Part shown: positions 1-38,543 of the stretch, in pieces
Numbering within the stretch: position 1 is the first letter of the stretch
Layout: the number at the start of each line of letters is the position of its first letter
Origin: Aromatoleum toluclasticum ATCC 700605
Lineage (GTDB): Bacteria > Pseudomonadota > Gammaproteobacteria > Burkholderiales > Rhodocyclaceae
NCBI RefSeq assembly: GCF_000378245.1
Contig: NZ_KB899499.1
Coordinates: forward strand, 62,001 to 126,000
Reading direction: 5' to 3'
DNA: 64,000 nt
The notes under the pieces: generated by a model
The model's input: only the letters and a program-made list of their open reading frames with translations
Databases searched by the model: none
What the model was told of the DNA's origin: nothing
Program-made: the position numbers and the translations under genes

Positions 1-1983
1 GGCCGGCGAGGCGCCGTCGGGGCGCTGCCGGCGCAGGATGTCGTGCAGGCGGTTGAGGGAGTGCCAGTGGTCGAGGGAGAGGCGGTCGCGCACCTGCGTG
101 GCGGCCCACACGGCGCGGCGCAGCGTGGAGGCGAGGCTGCCGGGGACGTTTTCGTCGAGCGCAGCTTCGATGAGGCGGCGCGCGACGGAGCGCTCATCGG
201 CGGGCGGGAGCAGGCCGAAGAGTTCGCAGTAGCCCACGGCGGTGGCGAGGGCGCCCGGCTCCCCGAAAAGCTCGCGAGCGCCTTCGCCGCGCACCGCCTT
301 CCCGGACACGCCCGCGTCCGCGGCCGCATCGCCTTCCTCGTTCAACCGGTCGCTGGCAAAGCGCAGCAGGCGGGCGCTGTTCTCGACGCGCTCGGCGTAG
401 CGGCCGAGCCAGAACAGGTTCTCCGCGCTGCGGCTGGCGATCTCGGGGCCGGCGCGCACGATGTCGCCCGCGCCGAGTTCGCCCTTGAGCAGGCTGAACT
501 GGCTCACCGGGGCCTCGGACAGGACCCAGGTGTCCTTCGACGAGCCGCCGCGCTGCATCGACAGGATGTCGACGTCGCCGCTGCCGGAGACGCGCGTGAG
601 GCCGCCGGGCATCACGCGCCAGCCCTCGGGTGTGACGACCGCATAGACGCGCACGCCGATCGCGCGCGCGACGAGGCGACGGTCGAGGGTCGGGCTGCCG
701 GAGTCGGGCATCACCGGCGCCTGCGACAGCTCCACCAGTTCCTGCCCGACATAGGCGTGCGGGCGATGGCGCAGGCGTTCTACCCAGTGGGCGCGCCCGC
801 GGGCGTCGAGGTCGCGCCCGAACACCGGCTGCAGGCGTTGCGAGGGGTAGGCGGGCTTGATGACGAGTTCGGCGAGATGCTCGATGACGTAGTCGAGCGC
901 AGGGGCTTCGCCGCACCACCAGCTGGCGACGGCCGGCATCGCGAGCGGCTCGCCGAGGAGGTGTTCGGCGAGCTTGGGCAGGAAGGCGAGCAGGCCCGAG
1001 GATTCCAGCACGCCGCTGCCCAGCGCGTTGGCCATCAGCACGCGGCCGGCGCGCACCGCCTCGACGAGGCCGGGCACGCCGAGCGAGGAGTCGCCGCGCA
1101 GTTCGAGCGGGTCGGCGTAGTCGTCGTCGAGCCGGCGCAGGATCACGTGCACGCGCTTGAGTCCGGCGAGCGTCTTCAGATACACGGAGTCGCCGCGCAC
1201 GGTGAGGTCCTGGCCTTCGACGAGCGGGAAGCCGAGGTAGCGCGCGAGGTAGGACTGCTCGAAGTAGGTCTCGTTGTAGGGGCCGGGCGTGAGCAGCACG
1301 ACGAAGGGCGTCTCGCCGGGATCGACCGGGGCCCAGCGCGCGAGGCTGTCCTGCAGGTGGCGGAAGAAATCCGCGAGGTGATGCACGCGCTGGTCGCGGA
1401 AGAGCTCCGGAAACAGGCGCGAGACGATCAGGCGGTTTTCGAGCGCGTAGCCGGCGCCCGAGGGGCCCTGCGCACGGTCGGCGATGACCCACCAGCGACC
1501 GTCGGGCGAGCGCGCGAGGTCGGCCGCATAGACGTGCAGGAAATGGCCCGAGGGCGGGCGCGTACCCTGGCAGGGCCACAGGAAGCCGTTGTGGCCGTAG
1601 ACCAGCGCCGCGGGCAGCGCGCCGCTGCGGATCAGGTTCTGCGGACCGTAGAGGTCGGCGAGCACCTGATCGAGCAGGTCCGCGCGCTGGGCGATGGCGG
1701 CATCGATCTGCGCCCACTCGTGGGCCGGGAGGATGAAGGGCAGCGGATCGAGGGTCCACGGCCGGTCGGCGCCCTGCGGGTCGGCATAGACGTTGTAGGT
1801 GGTGCCGTTCTCGCGGATGCGCTCGGTGACGAAAGCCTGGCGCGCGCGCATCTGGTCGGGCGTCGAGACGTCCAGCGCCTCGAACAGCGCCTGCCAGTGC
1901 GGCCGCAAATGCTCCGCCCCCGCGAGCATTTCATCGTAGCGGCCGGACTGGCGGGCGTAGAGCGAGAGCAGCTGGTGCGGCAT
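1..1983 (-). CDS. Fused circularly permuted ATP-grasp / alpha-E protein (C-terminus cut by window edge)
   Basis: Open from an ATG at 1983 to the window edge with no stop (661 codons), so the C-terminus is missing. Residues ~1-480 match the circularly permuted type 2 ATP-grasp family, with the characteristic SSKDTWVL string near the domain end. From about residue 512 an alpha-E (DUF403) domain begins with SAENLFWLGRYAERVENSA. The same two domains are encoded separately at 7261-8697 and 6256-7209, so this is a fused paralogue of that pair. It lies 8 bp downstream of the transglutaminase gene on the same strand, which suggests one operon. ATP-grasp proteins of this family are predicted to ligate carboxylates to amines; the substrate is unknown. 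Family assignment is firm, function is inferred. Confidence 0.9.
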   Translation of the reverse strand, partial: MPHQLLSLYARQSGRYDEMLAGAEHLRPHWQALFEALDVSTPDQMRARQAFVTERIRENGTTYNVYADPQGADRPWTLDPLPFILPAHEWAQIDAAIAQRADLLDQVLADLYGPQNLIRSGALPAALVYGHNGFLWPCQGTRPPSGHFLHVYAADLARSPDGRWWVIADRAQGPSGAGYALENRLIVSRLFPELFRDQRVHHLADFFRHLQDSLARWAPVDPGETPFVVLLTPGPYNETYFEQSYLARYLGFPLVEGQDLTVRGDSVYLKTLAGLKRVHVILRRLDDDYADPLELRGDSSLGVPGLVEAVRAGRVLMANALGSGVLESSGLLAFLPKLAEHLLGEPLAMPAVASWWCGEAPALDYVIEHLAELVIKPAYPSQRLQPVFGRDLDARGRAHWVERLRHRPHAYVGQELVELSQAPVMPDSGSPTLDRRLVARAIGVRVYAVVTPEGWRVMPGGLTRVSGSGDVDILSMQRGGSSKDTWVLSEAPVSQFSLLKGELGAGDIVRAGPEIASRSAENLFWLGRYAERVENSARLLRFASDRLNEEGDAAADAGVSGKAVRGEGARELFGEPGALATAVGYCELFGLLPPADERSVARRLIEAALDENVPGSLASTLRRAVWAATQVRDRLSLDHWHSLNRLHDILRRQRPDGASPA

Positions 1984-1991
1984 CGTCGGGG

Positions 1992-5351
<3,360 letters not shown>

Positions 5352-5457
5352 GCTGGATCTCCGCGGATTGTCGGGACGTCGCCGGACGAGCCGCCGGCGA
5401 CGTTCGGGTTTGTGATCTTGTTGTAGATGCCGGGCGGGCCGCAGCGACGCGGCGCGC

Positions 5458-6186
5458 TCAGAGCCAGTCCGGGTTCGGCAGTTCGGCGAAGGCCTCGCGC
5501 AGCCGCTCGCCCCACTGGCTGCGGATCTGTGCGTAGTAGGCGTGGTCCTGGTTGACCGAGATGTGCGACTTGACGGTCAGCGCGTCGCGCTCGATGACGC
5601 ACAGATCGAGCGGCAGGCCCACCGACAGGTTCGAGCGGATCGTCGAATCCATCGACACCAGCGCGCACTTGGCGCCATCGGCAAGCGTGGAGCCGTAACG
5701 CAGCACGCGGTCGATGATCGGCTTGCCGTACTTCGATTCGCCGATCTGGATGTAGGGGGTGTCCTCGGTGGCTTCGATGAAGTTGCCCGCGGCATAGACG
5801 TTGAAGAGCCGCGGCGCCTCGCCGAAGATCTGGCCGCCGACGATCAGCGAGGCGTTGAACTCGACACCGAACTCGTGCAGCGCGTCGGCATCGCGCCGGT
5901 GCACCTCGCGCACGACGTCGCCGACGTGGCGCGCCACCTCGAACATGTTGGGCGCGTTGAAGAGGTTGGCCGAATCGGTGAGCGCAAGCCGCTCGCTGAT
6001 GATGTTCACGACCGACTGGCTCACCGACAGGTTGCCGGACGTGCACATCACGACCACACGCTCGCCCGTCCGCTGCCAGACGCGCATCTTGCGGAACGTG
6101 TTGATGTGGTCGACGCCCGCGTTGGTGCGCGAGTCGGACAGGAACACCAGCCCCTTTTCGAGGCGCATCGCGACACAGTAGGTCAT
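5458..6186 (-). CDS. Anbu-type proteasome-like peptidase
   Basis: 242 residues, beginning MTYCVAMRLEKGLVFLSDSR. After removal of the initiator Met the N-terminal residue is Thr, the expected Ntn-hydrolase nucleophile. Asp18 and Lys33 (17 and 32 in mature numbering) fall where the proteasome catalytic Asp and Lys belong. This is the ancestral beta subunit (Anbu) family, which has a proteasome beta fold but is distinct from HslV and from the actinobacterial 20S proteasome. Flanking genes are the classic Anbu partners: alpha-E and ATP-grasp upstream, transglutaminase downstream. No ATPase unfoldase gene lies nearby in the window. Natural substrates are not known. Confidence 0.93.
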   Translation of the reverse strand: MTYCVAMRLEKGLVFLSDSRTNAGVDHINTFRKMRVWQRTGERVVVMCTSGNLSVSQSVVNIISERLALTDSANLFNAPNMFEVARHVGDVVREVHRRDADALHEFGVEFNASLIVGGQIFGEAPRLFNVYAAGNFIEATEDTPYIQIGESKYGKPIIDRVLRYGSTLADGAKCALVSMDSTIRSNLSVGLPLDLCVIERDALTVKSHISVNQDHAYYAQIRSQWGERLREAFAELPNPDWL

Positions 6187-6255
6187 GGCATTTGCTCGCT
6201 TGGTGCCGCGGCCGGAGGTGGCCCGCCGCGGCGGCTCACACGCTTCCCGCCCGGC

Positions 6256-7209
6256 TCAGGCGCCGACGAGGAAGTCCTCGCTGATGCGCACGCTCAGGTC
6301 ACCGATCGAGTCGATGAAATCGTCCAGCCACGCGTGCAGCCCGCGCTCGAAGATGGCGTCCATGCGGCCGTAGCGCAGCGTCGCGTACAGCTGGCCGGCG
6401 CGGCGCACGGTCTCGTCGGAGCGGCTGTTGCGCACCTTGTCCAGGATCTCGACCACCCCTTCCATGCACGAATGCAGCGCACGCGGCAGATCCTCGCGCA
6501 GGATCAGCAGTTCGGCGACGCGCTCGGGCGTGATCACGTCGCGATAAACCTTGCGATACACCTCGAAGGCCGACACCGAGCGCAGCAGCGCGCCCCAGTG
6601 GTAGTAATCGTTGGCGTCGACGAGGTCGTCTCCCTGGCTCTGCTGCGCACCGGGGAGGCCGTGATACTTCACGTCGAGGATGCGCGCGGTGTTGTCGGCG
6701 CGCTCGAGCAGGGCCCCCAGCCGGATGAACTGGAAGGCCTCGTCGCGCAGCATCGTGCCGAACATCGCCCCGCGCAGCAGCGAAGCGCGCTGCTTCACCC
6801 AGTCGAAGAAGGCCGCGATTCCGCCCGAATGGATCTCGGCGAAGCTCTGGTCGCGCAGCTGCAGCCAGGTCTCGTTGATCGTCTCCCACATCTCCGCGGT
6901 GAGCGTGCCGCGCACCGCATGGGCGTTCTCGCGCGCCGCACGCAGGCAGCTGTAGATCGACGATGGGTGCGTCTCGTCGCGCACCATGAAGTGCAGCACT
7001 TTCGTCGCGGTGGCCTCGTCGTGCCGCTTCGCGTAGGCGTATTCGAGGCTGTTCAGCGCGATGATCGCGTTCCAACTGCTGCGCTCGGTCTCCGCGTCGT
7101 GCGGCACGAGCGACATCTGATAATTGACGTCCAGCAGGCGCGCGAGATTTTCCGCGCGTTCGGAATAGCGGGCCATCCAGTAGAGGTGATCGGCGGTACG
7201 GCTCAGCAT
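6256..7209 (-). CDS. Alpha-E domain protein (DUF403)
   Basis: 317 residues, all predicted helical, beginning MLSRTADHLYWMARYSERAE. This start is the conserved motif of the alpha-E family, which consists of a single domain of about this length. It follows the ATP-grasp gene by ~50 bp and precedes Anbu by ~70 bp on the same strand. Alpha-E proteins almost always accompany or are fused to circularly permuted ATP-grasp proteins, and a partner or scaffold role is presumed. A paralogous copy is the C-terminal half of the fusion protein at 1-1983. Confidence 0.92.
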   Translation of the reverse strand: MLSRTADHLYWMARYSERAENLARLLDVNYQMSLVPHDAETERSSWNAIIALNSLEYAYAKRHDEATATKVLHFMVRDETHPSSIYSCLRAARENAHAVRGTLTAEMWETINETWLQLRDQSFAEIHSGGIAAFFDWVKQRASLLRGAMFGTMLRDEAFQFIRLGALLERADNTARILDVKYHGLPGAQQSQGDDLVDANDYYHWGALLRSVSAFEVYRKVYRDVITPERVAELLILREDLPRALHSCMEGVVEILDKVRNSRSDETVRRAGQLYATLRYGRMDAIFERGLHAWLDDFIDSIGDLSVRISEDFLVGA

Positions 7210-7260
7210 GATCGGGGCTCCGGCGCGGCGGTCGTGGTCGGGGGGCGAAGACGGCAGGAC

Positions 7261-8697
7261 TCAGCGCTGCGGTTCGGCATGGCCGTTCTCCAGCACCCAG
7301 GTGTCCTTGGTTCCTCCACCCTGCGAGGAATTGACCACCAGCGAGCCCTTGCGCAGCGCCACCCGCGTGAGCCCGCCCGGCACCAGCGAAACCTCCTTGC
7401 CCGAGAGCACGAAGGGCCGCAGGTCGATATGGCGCGGCGCGATGCCGCTGTCGACGTAGGTCGGGCAGGTCGACAGCGCCAGCGTCGGCTGCGCGATGTA
7501 CTTGTCCGGGTGCGCGGCGAGCACCGCGCGGAACTGCTCGATCTCGGCCTTCGTCGCCGCCGGCCCGACCAGCATGCCGTAGCCGCCCGCGCCATGCACC
7601 TCCTTCACGACGAGCTCCGGCAGATGGTCCAGCACGTAGCGCAGGTCGTCCTTCTCGCGGCAGCGCCAGGTCGGCACATTGTTGAGGATCGGCTCCTCGC
7701 CGAGGTAGAAGCGCACCATCTCGCCGACGTAGGGGTAGATCGACTTGTCGTCCGCGACGCCGGTGCCGATCGCATTGCACAACGTCACGCGCCCGGCGCG
7801 GTAAGCCTTCAGCAGGCCCGGCACGCCCAGCATCGAATCCGGCCGGAAGACCTGAGGATCGAGGAAGTCGTCGTCGATGCGGCGATAGATCACGTCCACG
7901 CGCTTCGGACCGCAGGTCGTGCGCATGTAGACGGCGTCGTGGTCGATGAACAGGTCGCGGCCTTCGACGAGCTCGACGCCCATCTGCTGGGCGAGGAAGG
8001 AATGTTCGAAGTAGGCCGAGTTGAATGCCCCCGGCGTCATCACGACCACCGTCGGATCATCCACGCCGGCCGGCGCCACCGCACGCAGCGTCTCCAGCAG
8101 CAGGTCGGGGTAGTGCTCGACCGGCGCGATCTTCTGCTGCGCGAAGAGCTCGGGGAAGAGCCGCATCATCATCTTGCGGTTCTCCAGCATGTAGGACACG
8201 CCCGAGGGCACGCGCAGGTTGTCCTCCAGCACGTAGAACTCCCCCGCCCCCGCGCGCACGATGTCCACACCCGCGATATGTGCATAGATGCCGTTGGGCA
8301 CCTTGAAACCCTTCATCTCCGGGCGGAACTGCGCGTTATCGAGCACCTCATCGGCGGGGATGCGGCCCGCGCGCAGGATGTCCTGGCCGTTGTAGATGTC
8401 GCCCAGGAACATGTTCAGCGCCTTCACGCGCTGCTTGAGCCCGGCGCGCAGCGTCTTCCATTCCGCATTGGGAATGATGCGCGGGATGGTGTCGAAGGGG
8501 ATCAGCCGCTCCGTGCCGGCCTCCTCGCCATACACGGCGAAGGTGATGCCCAGGCGGCGGAACGCGAGGTCCGCCTCGGCCCGCTTGCGCGCCATCACGC
8601 CCGGCGGCAGCCCGCGCGCCCAGGTTTCGAACGGACCGTAGTGCGTGCGCGTGCCGGCGTCCGCGTCATGCATTTCGTCGAAAAACAGCGTCGTCAT
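7261..8697 (-). CDS. Circularly permuted type 2 ATP-grasp protein
   Basis: 478 residues from the ATG at 8697, starting MTTLFFDEMHDADAGTRTHY. The reading frame continues upstream, but the upstream part lacks family similarity and a good ribosome site; an ATG at 8730 is the main alternative. Glycine-rich AGGYGMLVGP and the C-terminal TKDTWVL string mark the DUF404/DUF407 family. Members are predicted ATP-dependent carboxylate-amine ligases. It is the first gene of the Anbu cluster, so the promoter should lie in 8698-9004. It is paralogous to the N-terminal half of the protein at 1-1983. Confidence 0.92.
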   Translation of the reverse strand: MTTLFFDEMHDADAGTRTHYGPFETWARGLPPGVMARKRAEADLAFRRLGITFAVYGEEAGTERLIPFDTIPRIIPNAEWKTLRAGLKQRVKALNMFLGDIYNGQDILRAGRIPADEVLDNAQFRPEMKGFKVPNGIYAHIAGVDIVRAGAGEFYVLEDNLRVPSGVSYMLENRKMMMRLFPELFAQQKIAPVEHYPDLLLETLRAVAPAGVDDPTVVVMTPGAFNSAYFEHSFLAQQMGVELVEGRDLFIDHDAVYMRTTCGPKRVDVIYRRIDDDFLDPQVFRPDSMLGVPGLLKAYRAGRVTLCNAIGTGVADDKSIYPYVGEMVRFYLGEEPILNNVPTWRCREKDDLRYVLDHLPELVVKEVHGAGGYGMLVGPAATKAEIEQFRAVLAAHPDKYIAQPTLALSTCPTYVDSGIAPRHIDLRPFVLSGKEVSLVPGGLTRVALRKGSLVVNSSQGGGTKDTWVLENGHAEPQR

Positions 8698-22431: not shown

Positions 22432-24483
22432 ATGACACCTGCTTCGGTTCACGACATTCGCAACCTCGCCCTGCTCGGCCACGCCGGCTGCGGCAAGACC
22501 ACCCTGCTCGAAGCCCTGCTCGTCGCCTCGGGCACCATCGGCACCGCCGGCACGATCGAGCGCGGCGATACCGTCAGCGATTTCGATCCCCAGGAAAAGG
22601 CGATGGGGCATTCGCTGTCGACCTCGCTCGCGCACCTCGAATGGGCCGGACACTGGGTCAATCTCCTCGACACCCCGGGAACGCCCGACCTCGCCGGCCG
22701 CGCCCTTACCGCGCTGCCCGCGGTCGAGACCGCCGCGGTGCTCGTGAGCGCCGCGGCCGGCATCGAAAGCGGCACGCGCCGCATGATGGAGGCCGCGCGC
22801 GACAAATGCCGCCTCGTCGTCGTGTCGAAGATCGACGCCGCCACCCCGGCATCGCTCGCCGCGCTGCTCGACGACCTGTGCGCGACCTTCGGACGCGAAT
22901 GCCTGCCGATCAACCTGCCATCCGCGAGCGGCGACGCGGTGATCGACTGCTTCTTCGCCCCCGACGCAAACCGCGAGCCCGCGTTCTCGTCGGTCTCCGC
23001 CGCGCACGACAGCATCGTCGACCAGGTCGTCGAACTCGACGAGGCCCTGATGGCGAGCTACCTCGAACAGGGCGAATCGCTCGATCCCGAGCAGCTCCAC
23101 GCCCCCTTCGAGCAGGCCTTGCGCGAAGGCCACCTGATCCCGGTATGCTTCGTCTCCGCCCGCACCGGCGCCGGCGTGAAGGAACTGCTCGACATCCTCG
23201 GCCGCCTCATGCCCGACCCGACCGAAGGCAACCCGCCCCGCTTCCTCAAGGGCGACGGCGCCGACGCGCAGGAAGTCGAGGTCGCCACCGATCCCGAACG
23301 CCATGTCATCGCACACGTGTTCCAGGTCGCCAACGATCCTTACCGCGGCAAGCTGGGCCTGTTCCGCATCCACCAGGGGCGCATCAGCCCCAACACGCAG
23401 CTCTACATCGGCGACAGCCGCAAACCCTTCAAGGTATCCCACCTGCTGCGGCTGCAGGGCAAGAACCAGTCAGAGACGCCGCTGGGCGTGCCCGGCGACA
23501 TCTGCGCGGTCGCGCGCGTCGATGACATCCACCCCGACGCGGTGCTGCACGACTCGCACGACGAGGACAACTACCACCTCGCACCCGCCAGCTACCCGCA
23601 GCCGGTGTTCGGCCTCGCGCTGATCCCGCAGAAGCACGGCGACGAACAGAAGCTCGCCGAAGCCCTCGTGCGCCTGCTCGACGAAGACCCGTGCCTCGAA
23701 GTCGGCTTCGACCACCAGGCCCGCCAGACCGTCGTGCGCGGACTCGGCGAGCTGCACCTGAAGATCATCCTCGAACAGCTGCGCGCGCGCTGGAACCTGC
23801 AGTTCGACACGGCGACGCCGTCCGTCCCCTATCGCGAGACCATCAACGGCACGGCCGAGGCGCGCTACCGGCACAAGAAACAGAGCGGCGGCGCCGGCCA
23901 GTTCGGCGAAGTCGCCCTGCGCGTCGAATCGCTGCCAAGAGGCTCGGGCATCGAGCTCGGCAACGAGGTCAAGGGCGGCGCGATCCCGACCAATTTCCTG
24001 CCCGCGGTCGAAAAGGGCGTGCGCCAGGCGCTGGCCGAAGGTGCGCTCGCCGGCTTCCCGGTTCAGGACGTCAAGGTCGTACTGGTCGACGGCAAGGCGC
24101 ACGCAGTCGACTCGAACGAGGTGTCCTTCGTCTCCGCCGGCCGGCATGCGACGCTCGAAGCACTGCTCGGGGCACGGCCTGTCGTGCTGGAACCGCTCGT
24201 CAGCGTCACGGTGAAGGTCGCCGACAGCAACTTCGGCGAGGTCAGCGGCGAATTCGCGGGCCGGCGCGGCCACCTCACGACGACCGAAAGCCCGGCGAGC
24301 GGCTTCACACTGCTCACCGCCATCCTGCCGCTAGCCGAGATGGAAGGCTTCGAGGCGCGGCTGAAGGCCATCTGCGCCGGTGAGAGCGAGTTCTCGATCA
24401 CGGCAGCCGGGTACGAGCCCGCCCCTCAGGACGTGCAGCAGCGTCTCGCCAAGTCCTGGACGGGCCACGGCAGCGGCCAGTAA
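22432..24483 (+). CDS. Elongation factor G-like GTPase
   Basis: 683 residues with EF-G domain order. The G1 P-loop is GHAGCGKTT. G3 is DTPGTPD, where canonical EF-G has DTPGHVD. G4 is VSKID instead of NKxD. Domain IV contains RHKKQSGGAGQFGEV and the C-terminal domain V ends in the usual fold. It belongs to the EF-G-2/FusA2-like group, which does not replace housekeeping EF-G. Its cellular role is undefined. No ribosomal operon genes flank it; a DUF4212 gene follows 18 bp downstream. Confidence 0.88.
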   Translation: MTPASVHDIRNLALLGHAGCGKTTLLEALLVASGTIGTAGTIERGDTVSDFDPQEKAMGHSLSTSLAHLEWAGHWVNLLDTPGTPDLAGRALTALPAVETAAVLVSAAAGIESGTRRMMEAARDKCRLVVVSKIDAATPASLAALLDDLCATFGRECLPINLPSASGDAVIDCFFAPDANREPAFSSVSAAHDSIVDQVVELDEALMASYLEQGESLDPEQLHAPFEQALREGHLIPVCFVSARTGAGVKELLDILGRLMPDPTEGNPPRFLKGDGADAQEVEVATDPERHVIAHVFQVANDPYRGKLGLFRIHQGRISPNTQLYIGDSRKPFKVSHLLRLQGKNQSETPLGVPGDICAVARVDDIHPDAVLHDSHDEDNYHLAPASYPQPVFGLALIPQKHGDEQKLAEALVRLLDEDPCLEVGFDHQARQTVVRGLGELHLKIILEQLRARWNLQFDTATPSVPYRETINGTAEARYRHKKQSGGAGQFGEVALRVESLPRGSGIELGNEVKGGAIPTNFLPAVEKGVRQALAEGALAGFPVQDVKVVLVDGKAHAVDSNEVSFVSAGRHATLEALLGARPVVLEPLVSVTVKVADSNFGEVSGEFAGRRGHLTTTESPASGFTLLTAILPLAEMEGFEARLKAICAGESEFSITAAGYEPAPQDVQQRLAKSWTGHGSGQ

Positions 24484-27618: not shown

Positions 27619-28863
<1,245 letters not shown>

Positions 28864-29179: not shown

Positions 29180-31417
29180 TCAGGAATTCAAGGCAGCGAG
29201 CGCCGCATTGAGCGTCGCGCTCGGGCGCATCACCGCTTCGGTCTTGGCCGGATCTGCATAGTAGTAACCGCCGATGTTGACCGGCTTGCCCTGCACCGCG
29301 CTGAGTTCGGCGATGATCTTCTGCTCGTTGTCCGCGAGGGACTTGGCGAGCGGCGCGAAACGGGCCTTCAGCTCGGCATCCTCGGTCTGCGCAGCCAACG
29401 CCTCGGCCCAGTACAGGGCGAGGTAGAAGTGGCTGCCGCGGTTGTCGAGCTGGCCGGTGCGGCGCGACGGCGACTTGTCGTTGTCGAGCAGCTTGCCGGT
29501 CGCCTGGTCGAGCGTCTTCGCGAGCAGCTTCGCCTTGGCATTGCCGGTCTTGAGGCTCATCTCCTCGAGCGACACCGCCAGCGCGAGGAATTCGCCGAGC
29601 GAATCCCAGCGCAGGTGGTTTTCCTCGACCAGCTGCTGCACATGCTTGGGCGCCGAACCGCCCGCGCCGGTCTCGTACATGCCGCCGCCGGCCATCAGCG
29701 GGACGATGGAGAGCATCTTCGCGCTGGTGCCCAGTTCCATGATCGGGAACAGGTCGGTCAGGTAGTCGCGCAGGATGTTGCCGGTCACCGAGATGGTGTC
29801 GAGGCCGCGGGCGACGCGCTCAAGCGTGAAACGCATCGCACGCACCTGCGACATGATCTGGATGTCGAGGCCGCTGGTATCGTGATCCTTGAGGTACTTC
29901 TGCACCTTCTTGATCAGCTCGTTCTCGTGCGGACGGTAGGGGTCGAGCCAGAAGATCGCCGGCATACCCGAGTTGCGCGCGCGCGTGACGGCGAGCTTGA
30001 CCCAGTCGCGGATCGGCGCATCCTTGACCTGGCACATGCGCCAGATGTCACCCGCTTCGACGTTCTGCGACATGAGGACTTCGCCGGTATCGAGGTCGGT
30101 GATGTTGGCGACGCCGTCTTCCGGGATCTCGAAGGTCTTGTCGTGCGAACCGTATTCCTCGGCCTGCTGCGCCATCAGGCCGACGTTCGGCACCGTGCCC
30201 ATCGTGGCCGGATCGAAGTTGCCGTGCCACTTGCAGAAGCTGATCATCTCCTGGTAGATGCGGGCGAAGGTCGATTCCGGCATGACGCACTTGCTGTCGT
30301 ACTGTTTGCCGTCTGCGCCCCACATCTTGCCCCCGCCGCGGATCATCGCCGGCATGGAGGCATCGACGATGATGTCGTTGGGCGAGTGGAAGTTGGTGAT
30401 GCCCTTGGCCGAGTCGACCATCGCCAGGCGCGGACGGTGCTCCTGGCAGGCGTGCAGGTCGCGGATGATCTCGTCGCGCTTCGACTCGGGCAGTGTCTCG
30501 ATCTTCTCGTACAGCGTGGCCATGCCGTTATTGACGTTGATGCCCAGCTCGTCGAACAGCTTGCCGTGCTTCTCGAAGGCTTCCTTGTAGTAGATCTTCA
30601 CGCAATGGCCGAAGACGATGGGGTGCGAGACCTTCATCATCGTCGCCTTCACGTGCAGCGAGAACAGGATGCCGGCTTCGCGGCAGTCGTCGAGCTGCTG
30701 CTCGTAGAACTCGCACAGCGCCTTCTTGCTCATGAACATGGAGTCGATGATCTCGCCGTCGAGCAGCACGGTCTTCGGCTTCAGCACGATCGCCTTGCCG
30801 CTCTTGGTGACGAGCTCCATCTTCACGTTGCGCGCACGGTCGAGCGTCAGCGACTTTTCGCCGTGATAGAAGTCGCCGTGCTCCATGTGCGAGACGTGGG
30901 TCTGCGACCACTGCTTCCACTCGCTCATCGAGTGCGGGTGCTTCTTCGCGTAGTTCTTGACGGCCGCAGGCGCGCGGCGGTCGGAGTTGCCTTCGCGCAG
31001 CACGGGGTTCACCGCGGAACCCAGGCACTTGCCGAAGCGGACTTTGAGCGCCTTCTCTTGTTCGGTCGTCGGATTCTCCGGGTAGTCCGGGATGGCGTAG
31101 CCGTTGGACTGGAGTTCCTTGATGCAGGCCATCAGCTGCGCAACCGAGGCGCTGATGTTCGGCAGCTTGATGATGTTCGTGTCCGGATCCTGGGTCAGGC
31201 GGCCCAGCTCGGCGAGGTTGTCGGGGACCTTCTGTGCATCGGTCAGGCAATCCGAGAATTCGGCCAGCACGCGGGCGGCCACGGAGATGTCGCTTTTCTG
31301 GATCGTCACACCTGCCGGCGCCGTGAACGTCTCGATGATCGGCAACAGCGAGTAGGTCGCCAGCAGCGGCGCCTCATCAGTGAGCGTGTAGATGATCGTC
31401 GAATTCTTGCTGGTCAT
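29180..31417 (-). CDS. icd2: NADP-dependent isocitrate dehydrogenase, monomeric type
   Basis: 745 residues, the size of the ~80 kDa monomeric IDH and unrelated in sequence to the dimeric enzyme. Strings such as [19 protein letters not shown] at the N-terminus, [40 protein letters not shown] and [18 protein letters not shown] are typical. Same reaction as Icd but not known to be an AceK substrate. It lies immediately upstream of icd in tandem. A perfect 16-bp palindrome at 31577-31592 sits 160 bp upstream and is shared in its core with the aceA promoter. Confidence 0.97.
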
Positions 31418-37268: not shown

Positions 37269-38543
37269 ATGGACAGACGCCGTTTCCTGCGTAGCCTGGG
37301 CCTGACCGCAACCGCACCGGCCACCGCCATCCTTGCGGCGTGTTCAGCCGCCCCGCCGCGCCCCGCCCCGCGCGTCGTCGTGGTCGGCGGCGGATACGGT
37401 GGCGCGACGACGGCGAAGTACCTGCGCCTGTGGAGCGCCGGCCGCGTCGACGTCACGCTGGTCGAACGCGAAGCGCGCTTCGTCTCCTGCCCGATGTCCA
37501 ACCTCGTCCTCGCCGGCCTGCGCAGCCTCGACGAGCTGACGGCGAACTACGAGCGCCTGCGCACGCGCTGGGGCGTGCGCGTCGTCTGCGACGAAGTCAC
37601 CCAGATGGACGTCGCCCGACGCGAGATCCGCCTCGCCCGCAACGGCACAATCGCCTTCGACCGCATCGTGCTCGCCCCCGGCGTGGATTTCCTCGCCGAG
37701 CAGGTGGCGGGGCTGGCAGGCAACTTCGAGCGCATCCCCCACGCCTGGAAGGCCGGCCCGCAGACCGAACTGCTGCGTCGCCAGATCGAGGCGATGCCCG
37801 AGGGCGGCGTGTTCGCACTGCACGTCCCGAAGTCCCCCTACCGCTGCCCGCCCGGCCCCTACGAACGGGCCTGCCTCGTCGCGCACTACCTGCGTGCGCG
37901 CAAGCCGCGCGCGAAGCTGCTCCTCCTCGACGCCAACAGCGAGATCCAGTCCAAGAAGGCTTTGTTCGCCACAGCCTTTGCCGGACCATACAAGGACATC
38001 ATCGAATACCGCCCCGACAGCACCCTGCTCTCGGTCGATGCCAATACCCTGAACGCCGAACTCGAATTCGACCGGATCCGCGCCGACGTCCTCAACGTCG
38101 TCCCGCCGATGCGCGCGGGGCGACTCGTGGACGGGCTGGGTATCCCCCTGACCAACGGCCGATGGATCGAGGTCGACTGGCGCACGATGGAAGTACCCGG
38201 CCTCCCCGGCGTCCATGTCATCGGCGACGCGGTGCTCGCCGCACCGGGCATGCCGAAATCCGGCCACATCGCGAACCAGCAGGCCAAGCTTGCCGCAGCC
38301 GCGATCGTCGAACTGTTCGACGGCCGTTCGCCCGACCCCGTCCCGACGCTGCTGAACACCTGCTACAGCTTCGTCGACGACCGCAGAGCGATCCACGTCG
38401 CGACCGTGCACCGCTACGACACGGCCGAGGGAACCGTCCTGCCGGTCGCCGGCGCGGGCGGCCTGTCGTCGTCGGCGAGCGAAGAGGAAGGACGCTACGC
38501 TGCGGCCTGGGCGCAGAACATCCGCGCCGACATGCTGGGCTGA
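37269..38543 (+). CDS. fccB: Flavocytochrome c sulfide dehydrogenase flavoprotein
   Basis: 424 residues. The N-terminus MDRRRFLRSLGLTATAPATA is Tat-like and ends ILAACSAAP, which also fits a lipobox. The FAD-binding motif is VVVVGGGYGGATTAKYLRL. Cys74 in FVSCPMSN matches the covalent FAD attachment cysteine, and Cys193 and Cys365 match the redox disulfide pair. It oxidises sulfide to polysulfide or sulfur and passes electrons to FccA. It is in one operon with fccA and divergent from soxYZ. Confidence 0.92.
   Translation: MDRRRFLRSLGLTATAPATAILAACSAAPPRPAPRVVVVGGGYGGATTAKYLRLWSAGRVDVTLVEREARFVSCPMSNLVLAGLRSLDELTANYERLRTRWGVRVVCDEVTQMDVARREIRLARNGTIAFDRIVLAPGVDFLAEQVAGLAGNFERIPHAWKAGPQTELLRRQIEAMPEGGVFALHVPKSPYRCPPGPYERACLVAHYLRARKPRAKLLLLDANSEIQSKKALFATAFAGPYKDIIEYRPDSTLLSVDANTLNAELEFDRIRADVLNVVPPMRAGRLVDGLGIPLTNGRWIEVDWRTMEVPGLPGVHVIGDAVLAAPGMPKSGHIANQQAKLAAAAIVELFDGRSPDPVPTLLNTCYSFVDDRRAIHVATVHRYDTAEGTVLPVAGAGGLSSSASEEEGRYAAAWAQNIRADMLG

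Follow-up and report, generated by a model that had tools for sequence, protein, structure and literature searches.

A gene cluster of Aromatoleum toluclasticum merging two ATP-grasp/alpha-E modules around Anbu, with likely sigma-54/NtrC nitrogen control

Results

We analyzed a stretch of 64,000 nucleotides of Aromatoleum toluclasticum ATCC 700605 (the window), from a genome of 5.9 Mb. Positions 1 to 8697 of the window hold five consecutive genes (Table 1). An earlier note on this DNA had described five same-strand genes, including a second, fused ligase/alpha-E protein, and both statements hold: all five lie on the minus strand, each has family matches, and the two Pfam families of the fused protein share one frame. 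The extent given there was too short, since a sixth gene coding for a second transglutaminase follows just beyond the window edge. The order of transcription is thus ATP-grasp, alpha-E, Anbu, transglutaminase-DUF2126, fused ATP-grasp/alpha-E, and second transglutaminase, with gaps of 51, 69, 106, 8, and 2 bases. On the basis of this spacing and the shared strand, the six genes likely form one operon, in agreement with the single transcription unit suggested earlier. All cluster genes except Anbu score at least 30 bits above their Pfam cut-offs and Anbu 6 bits above, and the predicted gene assignments are far beyond chance. NCBIfam yielded one match for the six proteins: Anbu hit a proteasome beta model built for archaea, with a score of 22.7 bits against a cut-off of 224.

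Table 1. Genes and candidate control elements of the cluster (window positions, unless preceded by L003 or contig)
Feature	Position	Strand	Details
Module 1 CP-ATP-grasp ligase, first gene, 478 aa	8697-7261	-	PF14403, 558 bits, E 1e-167; PF04174, 513 bits
Module 1 alpha-E, 317 aa, helical, internally duplicated	7209-6256	-	PF04168, 336.5 bits, E 2.4e-100
Anbu, proteasome-like Ntn hydrolase, 242 aa	6186-5458	-	Thr2/Asp18/Lys33; PF00227, E 1.4e-6; 5loy, E 9.4e-93
Module 2 transglutaminase-DUF2126, 1119 aa	5351-1992	-	GTG start; PF08379, PF01841, PF09899
Module 2 fused CP-ATP-grasp/alpha-E, 875 aa	1983-1, on past the window edge to L003:9357	-	PF14403 and PF04168 in one frame
Module 2 second transglutaminase, sixth gene, 298 aa, outside the window	L003:9354-8458 = contig 61353-60457		Transglutaminase core
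Sigma-54-type box TGGCATGGTCTTCGCT	8747-8732	-	Begins 50 bases upstream of the start codon of ATP-grasp
NtrC-like palindrome TGCATCAATGCGGTGCG	8826-8810	-	11/14 consensus letters; weak on its own

Structures of Anbu proteins have been solved since 2017, and we know of no Anbu substrate. The window protein, with its Pfam margin of 6 bits, was placed by its close solved relatives, five Anbu sequences matching at E 9e-93 to 3e-74, among them the designed Anbu 5loy. It carries the N-terminal Thr behind Met together with the Asp17/18 and Lys32/33 by which Anbu proteins are recognized. The Thr2/Asp18/Lys33 site, previously called intact, is indeed present in the window protein and in all 108 Anbu sequences collected. 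The four families of the Anbu operon stand on one strand here, but the transglutaminase is of the DUF2126-fused kind and not the short one. The nearest named Anbu genes come from Dechloromonas, a Comamonadaceae metagenome-assembled genome (MAG), and Azovibrio, and point to a probable Rhodocyclaceae-like betaproteobacterium as the source. For other Anbu proteins an open-ring or lock-washer assembly has been published, and proteasome inhibitors bind Anbu. According to the accessible part of Piasecka et al., neither peptidase nor amidase activity on standard substrates was detected, and no complex with other operon proteins was found. Such failed assays, along with the precedent of Connectase, a proteasome-like protein that acts as a protein ligase and not as a protease, would suit a scenario in which Anbu is a transpeptidase or ligase instead of a hydrolase: an acyl group carried on its Thr would be handed over to an acceptor that the module produces. 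No acceptor is known, however, and Anbu exists in genomes that have no module at all (see below); we consider this scenario very improbable.

The transglutaminase had been credited with an intact catalytic triad. Its Cys-His-Asp motif was found, as in 25 of 26 copies of transglutaminase-DUF2126 (window copy included), but a full DUF2126 domain fused to it had been overlooked. This predicted amidoligase occupies residues 280-1112 (PF09899, 1324.5 bits, profile positions 1-826 of 826). The same pattern, which is too strict for short copies, occurs in 18/70 short transglutaminases, and the triad of the sixth-gene transglutaminase is present when read by eye. At the thresholds used, sequence searches returned no solved relative of the transglutaminase-DUF2126 protein, and a DUF2126 model built from 7 sequences was unusable (pLDDT 45). 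On the question of a glutamine-synthetase-like fold, HHalign gave less than 1% for DUF2126 against GCS2. Groups within GCS2 recognized one another at 91% in this comparison, which could still overlook a remote link.

Both ATP-grasp copies fit the CP-ATP-grasp family and have its conserved residues. The module 1 copy has a solved relative (3n6x, E 6e-222), and the fused copy keeps 68 of the 69 columns that are at least 97% conserved among 99 aligned copies. Judged by these residues both look active; phosphate release from ATP has been published for the Yersinia ATP-grasp. For alpha-E, no solved relative was detected by sequence at the thresholds used. A model from 49 sequences is all-helical (pLDDT 91.5) and gave no clear fold match in the PDB, which does not demonstrate a new fold. 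The N- and C-terminal parts of alpha-E are homologous by profile comparison (HHalign 99%, E 3.8e-18, 119 columns, 40 sequences; unrelated pairs <1%), and by this profile evidence the protein is an internal duplication. The window alpha-E has the motif ERAENLAR in its first half and ERADNTAR in its second; the fused protein has, as seen by eye, a changed version of the second motif.

The window cluster is two modules merged, with Anbu between the two; locus maps were drawn for 40 hand-chosen loci from 25 of 61 genomes. In relatives, module 1 consists of ATP-grasp and alpha-E, to which a short transglutaminase and Anbu may be added, and module 2 of transglutaminase-DUF2126, fused ATP-grasp/alpha-E, and a transglutaminase; the two can occur apart. 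Clusters of the same two modules occur in mycobacteria, where they are not known to include Anbu. Of 17 same-genus genomes, counting that of the window, 11 show the order ATP-grasp, Anbu, DUF2126, fused ligase; in one the blocks are split between two contigs, and five have no ligases. We also compared named Anbu loci, namely the best 80 of 593 confirmed. In 39 of these 80, ATP-grasp, alpha-E, transglutaminase, and Anbu stand in a row; two have the gene order of the window, and in 21 Anbu has no partner within the retrieved flank. Among those 21, alpha-E lies elsewhere in 19 of the 20 genomes that could be searched.

Co-occurrence was counted in 61 genomes of relatives (window genome included) and in a separate sample of 200 genomes of the phylum. 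ATP-grasp and alpha-E are found in the same 38 of the 61 genomes (Fisher p 3e-17, to be taken as a guide, since genomes were counted singly and are not independent events). The coinciding genome sets, and likewise the fusion in module 2, identify alpha-E as the partner that constantly accompanies ATP-grasp. DUF2126 occurs in 34 of the 61 genomes, one copy being in fragments, and all 34 fall within the 38 that have ATP-grasp and alpha-E. Anbu behaves differently. It is present in 39 of the 61 genomes, 33 with the ligase and six without, and five of the 38 ligase genomes have no Anbu. In the phylum sample, Anbu occurs in 69 genomes and alpha-E in 112, with 68 having both and 44 of the 112 having alpha-E without Anbu. 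Anbu is hence mostly found where the module is present, the module is often found without Anbu, and Anbu looks like an optional member of the ligase operon and not part of its core.

These counts bear on the earlier proposal, which follows Iyer 2009 as relayed by citing papers, that a single peptide-like compound or tag is made by the ligases and that Anbu is its dedicated peptidase, the cluster thus encoding both its synthesis and its turnover. The presence of alpha-E in 68 of the 69 Anbu genomes of the phylum sample upholds the association, as do the 39 of the best 80 named loci with four genes in a row and the 19 of 20 searched genomes in which a separate Anbu is accompanied by alpha-E elsewhere. 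A dedicated role fits less well with the 44 of 112 alpha-E genomes that have no Anbu, or with the six of 39 Anbu genomes that have neither ATP-grasp nor alpha-E. The published assays described above, without activity on standard substrates and without a complex, count against it too, and Fuchs et al., in the text available, judge a role in peptide synthesis less likely. We regard a dedicated peptidase as possible but doubtful.

The six stand-alone Anbu genes of the 61-genome set belong to five species of the genus of the window and to a sixth from the same family. A tree was built from 74 Anbu sequences, with weak support for 28 of its 71 inner branches. It places seven ligase-less copies among operon copies, at two places; the seventh, from Achromobacter pulmonis, was checked for alpha-E alone. 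Five ligase-less copies gave dN/dS values of 0.03-0.08 in ten pairwise comparisons, indicating purifying selection. Because the active site is kept and dN/dS is this low, ligase-less Anbu copies probably still work without a ligase, which speaks further against a dedicated peptidase.

Upstream of the first gene we found a sigma-54-type box that the earlier note had not noticed. It is the single such box in the window, where a one-mismatch match is expected 1.3 times by chance, so it is no evidence when taken alone and the case rests on conservation. With a threshold score of at least 13 and hand-set weights based on the consensus, a box precedes 68 of 79 module 1 ATP-grasp genes (11 have none at this threshold), against 76 of 842 other genes that have an upstream gap. 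The remaining cluster families have it in 2/81 (alpha-E), 10/70 (short transglutaminase), 8/108 (Anbu), 3/20 (fused protein), and 9/26 cases (transglutaminase-DUF2126). All nine of the last group are among the 15 genes that lie away from module 1, and none is among the 11 behind it (p 0.002; loci were sorted by hand, and one with an intervening 170-aa frame was put under ‘behind module 1’). In 42 of 68 loci, that of the window included, there is an NtrC-like palindrome that outscores 95% of shuffles. The source genome has one sigma-54 gene. Detached Anbu genes seldom have a box: it was found in 3 of 22 unlinked copies and in none of seven ligase-less copies, which is a further point against a dedicated peptidase. 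It was found in none of three paired with a transglutaminase alone. Where Anbu is divergent from a module gene, three of five have one.

Published expression data point mostly in the same direction. In the ntrC mutant of Burkholderia cenocepacia, the ATP-grasp, alpha-E, and both transglutaminase genes are down by log2 6.0-9.4, and the same genes are listed among common sigma-54/NtrC targets (PMC5491218). In Pseudomonas putida, Anbu is up by log2 4.4 and ATP-grasp by log2 4.0 on nitrate versus ammonium (PMC8050072). An RpoN site has been reported in Bradyrhizobium (PMC13207237), a sigma-54 survey includes COG3484, there called a proteasome-type protease (PMC12316311), and urea-metabolism domains feature in work on marine metagenomes (PMC3597751). 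One study of P. putida conflicts with this picture: under nitrogen limitation, PP_2686-2688 (ATP-grasp, alpha-E, transglutaminase) rose 11-15 fold in the wild type and 14-20 fold in the rpoN mutant, with Anbu (PP_2685) at 1.12 fold and 1.45 fold, respectively (PMC7801951). These data speak against sigma-54 dependence in P. putida. Since its urea-transport genes respond likewise in that study, the conflict extends beyond this operon, and it stands. For the window operon, the conserved box and the relatives make nitrogen control through sigma-54 and NtrC likely.

Nitrogen induction in relatives could also mean that the cluster serves bulk protein turnover, with Anbu degrading proteins or peptides, the transglutaminases releasing ammonia, and the ligases being secondary. 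Piasecka et al. name this possibility in the part available, it is near the opinion of Fuchs et al., and the binding of proteasome inhibitors to Anbu would suit it. Yet Anbu activity was not found in the published assays, the constant core is ATP-grasp and alpha-E and not Anbu, and the box is mostly absent ahead of detached Anbu; bulk turnover therefore seems to us quite improbable.

Discussion

The cluster is a new example of an operon type already known, here joined to a second module. The association of Anbu, CP-ATP-grasp, alpha-E, and transglutaminase, which the earlier note had rightly called known from other bacteria, and a proposed peptide chemistry are already published (PMC5666114, PMC6376114); in the literature searched we recognized no report of the substrate or of a ligase product. 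What is added here are figures for a constant ATP-grasp/alpha-E core with an optional Anbu, the box on detached module 2, ligase-less Anbu copies under selection, and the duplication within alpha-E.

On balance, we favor with moderate confidence the explanation that the operon is probably under sigma-54 and NtrC in nitrogen limitation and merges two amide-bond modules, with Anbu as a member that is often present but not core. This explanation combines computed features (gene content, modules, co-occurrence, and conservation of box and active sites) with inferred ones (co-transcription, activity, substrate, and direction). Each ATP-grasp would activate a carboxylate as acyl phosphate, and alpha-E, both halves of which have a Glu/Arg-rich motif, might hold the acceptor or product. 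Transfer or cutting of amides could fall to the Cys-His-Asp transglutaminase domains, and DUF2126 may contribute one more ligation. Anbu would act as an N-terminal-Thr hydrolase that is a frequent companion of the operon.

A bolder extension, unlikely in our estimate, would be a nitrogen-starvation assembly line in which three amide-forming domains (two ATP-grasp/alpha-E pairs and DUF2126) and two transglutaminases build and remodel a peptide-like compound not yet described, either a nitrogen store or a protein tag. Alpha-E would be the duplicated carrier of the growing product, and Anbu would be Thr-dependent with its own substrate. Since Anbu can live without the line, that substrate would be sought in ligase-less species of the same genus.

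These results offer three handles on Anbu: nitrogen limitation as a condition to examine, ATP-grasp and alpha-E as a joint purification unit, and species with a naturally ligase-less Anbu as a control that parts the role of Anbu from that of the ligase.

Among known systems, B. cenocepacia I35_5080-83 (ATP-grasp, alpha-E, transglutaminase, and large transglutaminase) shares families with the window and has published NtrC control, but Anbu is not among the four and the accessible account does not list the fused ligase. In Pseudomonas and Yersinia the Anbu operon has four genes (CP-ATP-grasp, alpha-E, transglutaminase, and Anbu), with nitrogen-linked expression published for P. putida; its first two genes and Anbu are the same as here. 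Compared with it, the window operon has no short module 1 transglutaminase and carries a whole module 2 after Anbu. RimK-type ATP-grasp enzymes are not known to belong to the circularly permuted family. The RimK/RimB and rlo systems also pair an ATP-grasp ligase with a peptidase, in their case a retropepsin-like one, and rlo includes a transglutaminase-like protein. Both differ from the window cluster in that their peptidases are aspartic, Anbu is absent, and alpha-E goes unmentioned in the available descriptions; the rlo transglutaminase is inactive and membrane-bound.

Anbu genes in other settings

A second Anbu, the proteasome-like Ntn hydrolase, is present in three of the compared genomes (G001, G002 and G058; loci L040, L041 and L042), where its sole partner is a transglutaminase. 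These three transglutaminase-paired copies form one clade in the Anbu tree. Upstream in L040 and L041 lie small genes that, by eye, look lipoprotein-like and PRC-barrel-like.

In the window's own genus, Anbu also occurs in genomes that carry neither ATP-grasp nor alpha-E genes. All five of these (G005-G008 and G011; loci L034-L038) encode a BON-domain protein tail to tail with the ligase-less Anbu. This neighbor is very rich in Gln, Gly and Tyr, and no match to it was found in the window's genome.

Anbu genes standing apart from the ligase module were seen near a mutS-like gene, named by eye from its sequence, at 11 loci of Comamonadaceae-type genomes (L110, L131, L132, L134, L135, L136, L142, L144, L147, L148 and L151). 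Directly behind it, 10 of the 11 loci carry a gene that by eye resembles an alpha/beta-hydrolase.

Other genes in the window

The flavocytochrome c sulfide dehydrogenase flavoprotein-like gene gives a hint of sulfide oxidation. Two adjoining isocitrate dehydrogenase genes are mutually unrelated, one being of the isocitrate/isopropylmalate type and the other monomeric.

Further genes of the window (window numbering)
Feature	Position	Strand	Length
Elongation-factor-G-like protein	22432-24483	plus	683 aa
Isocitrate dehydrogenase gene	27619-28863	minus	
Isocitrate dehydrogenase gene	29180-31417	minus	
Flavocytochrome c sulfide dehydrogenase flavoprotein-like gene	37269-38543	plus
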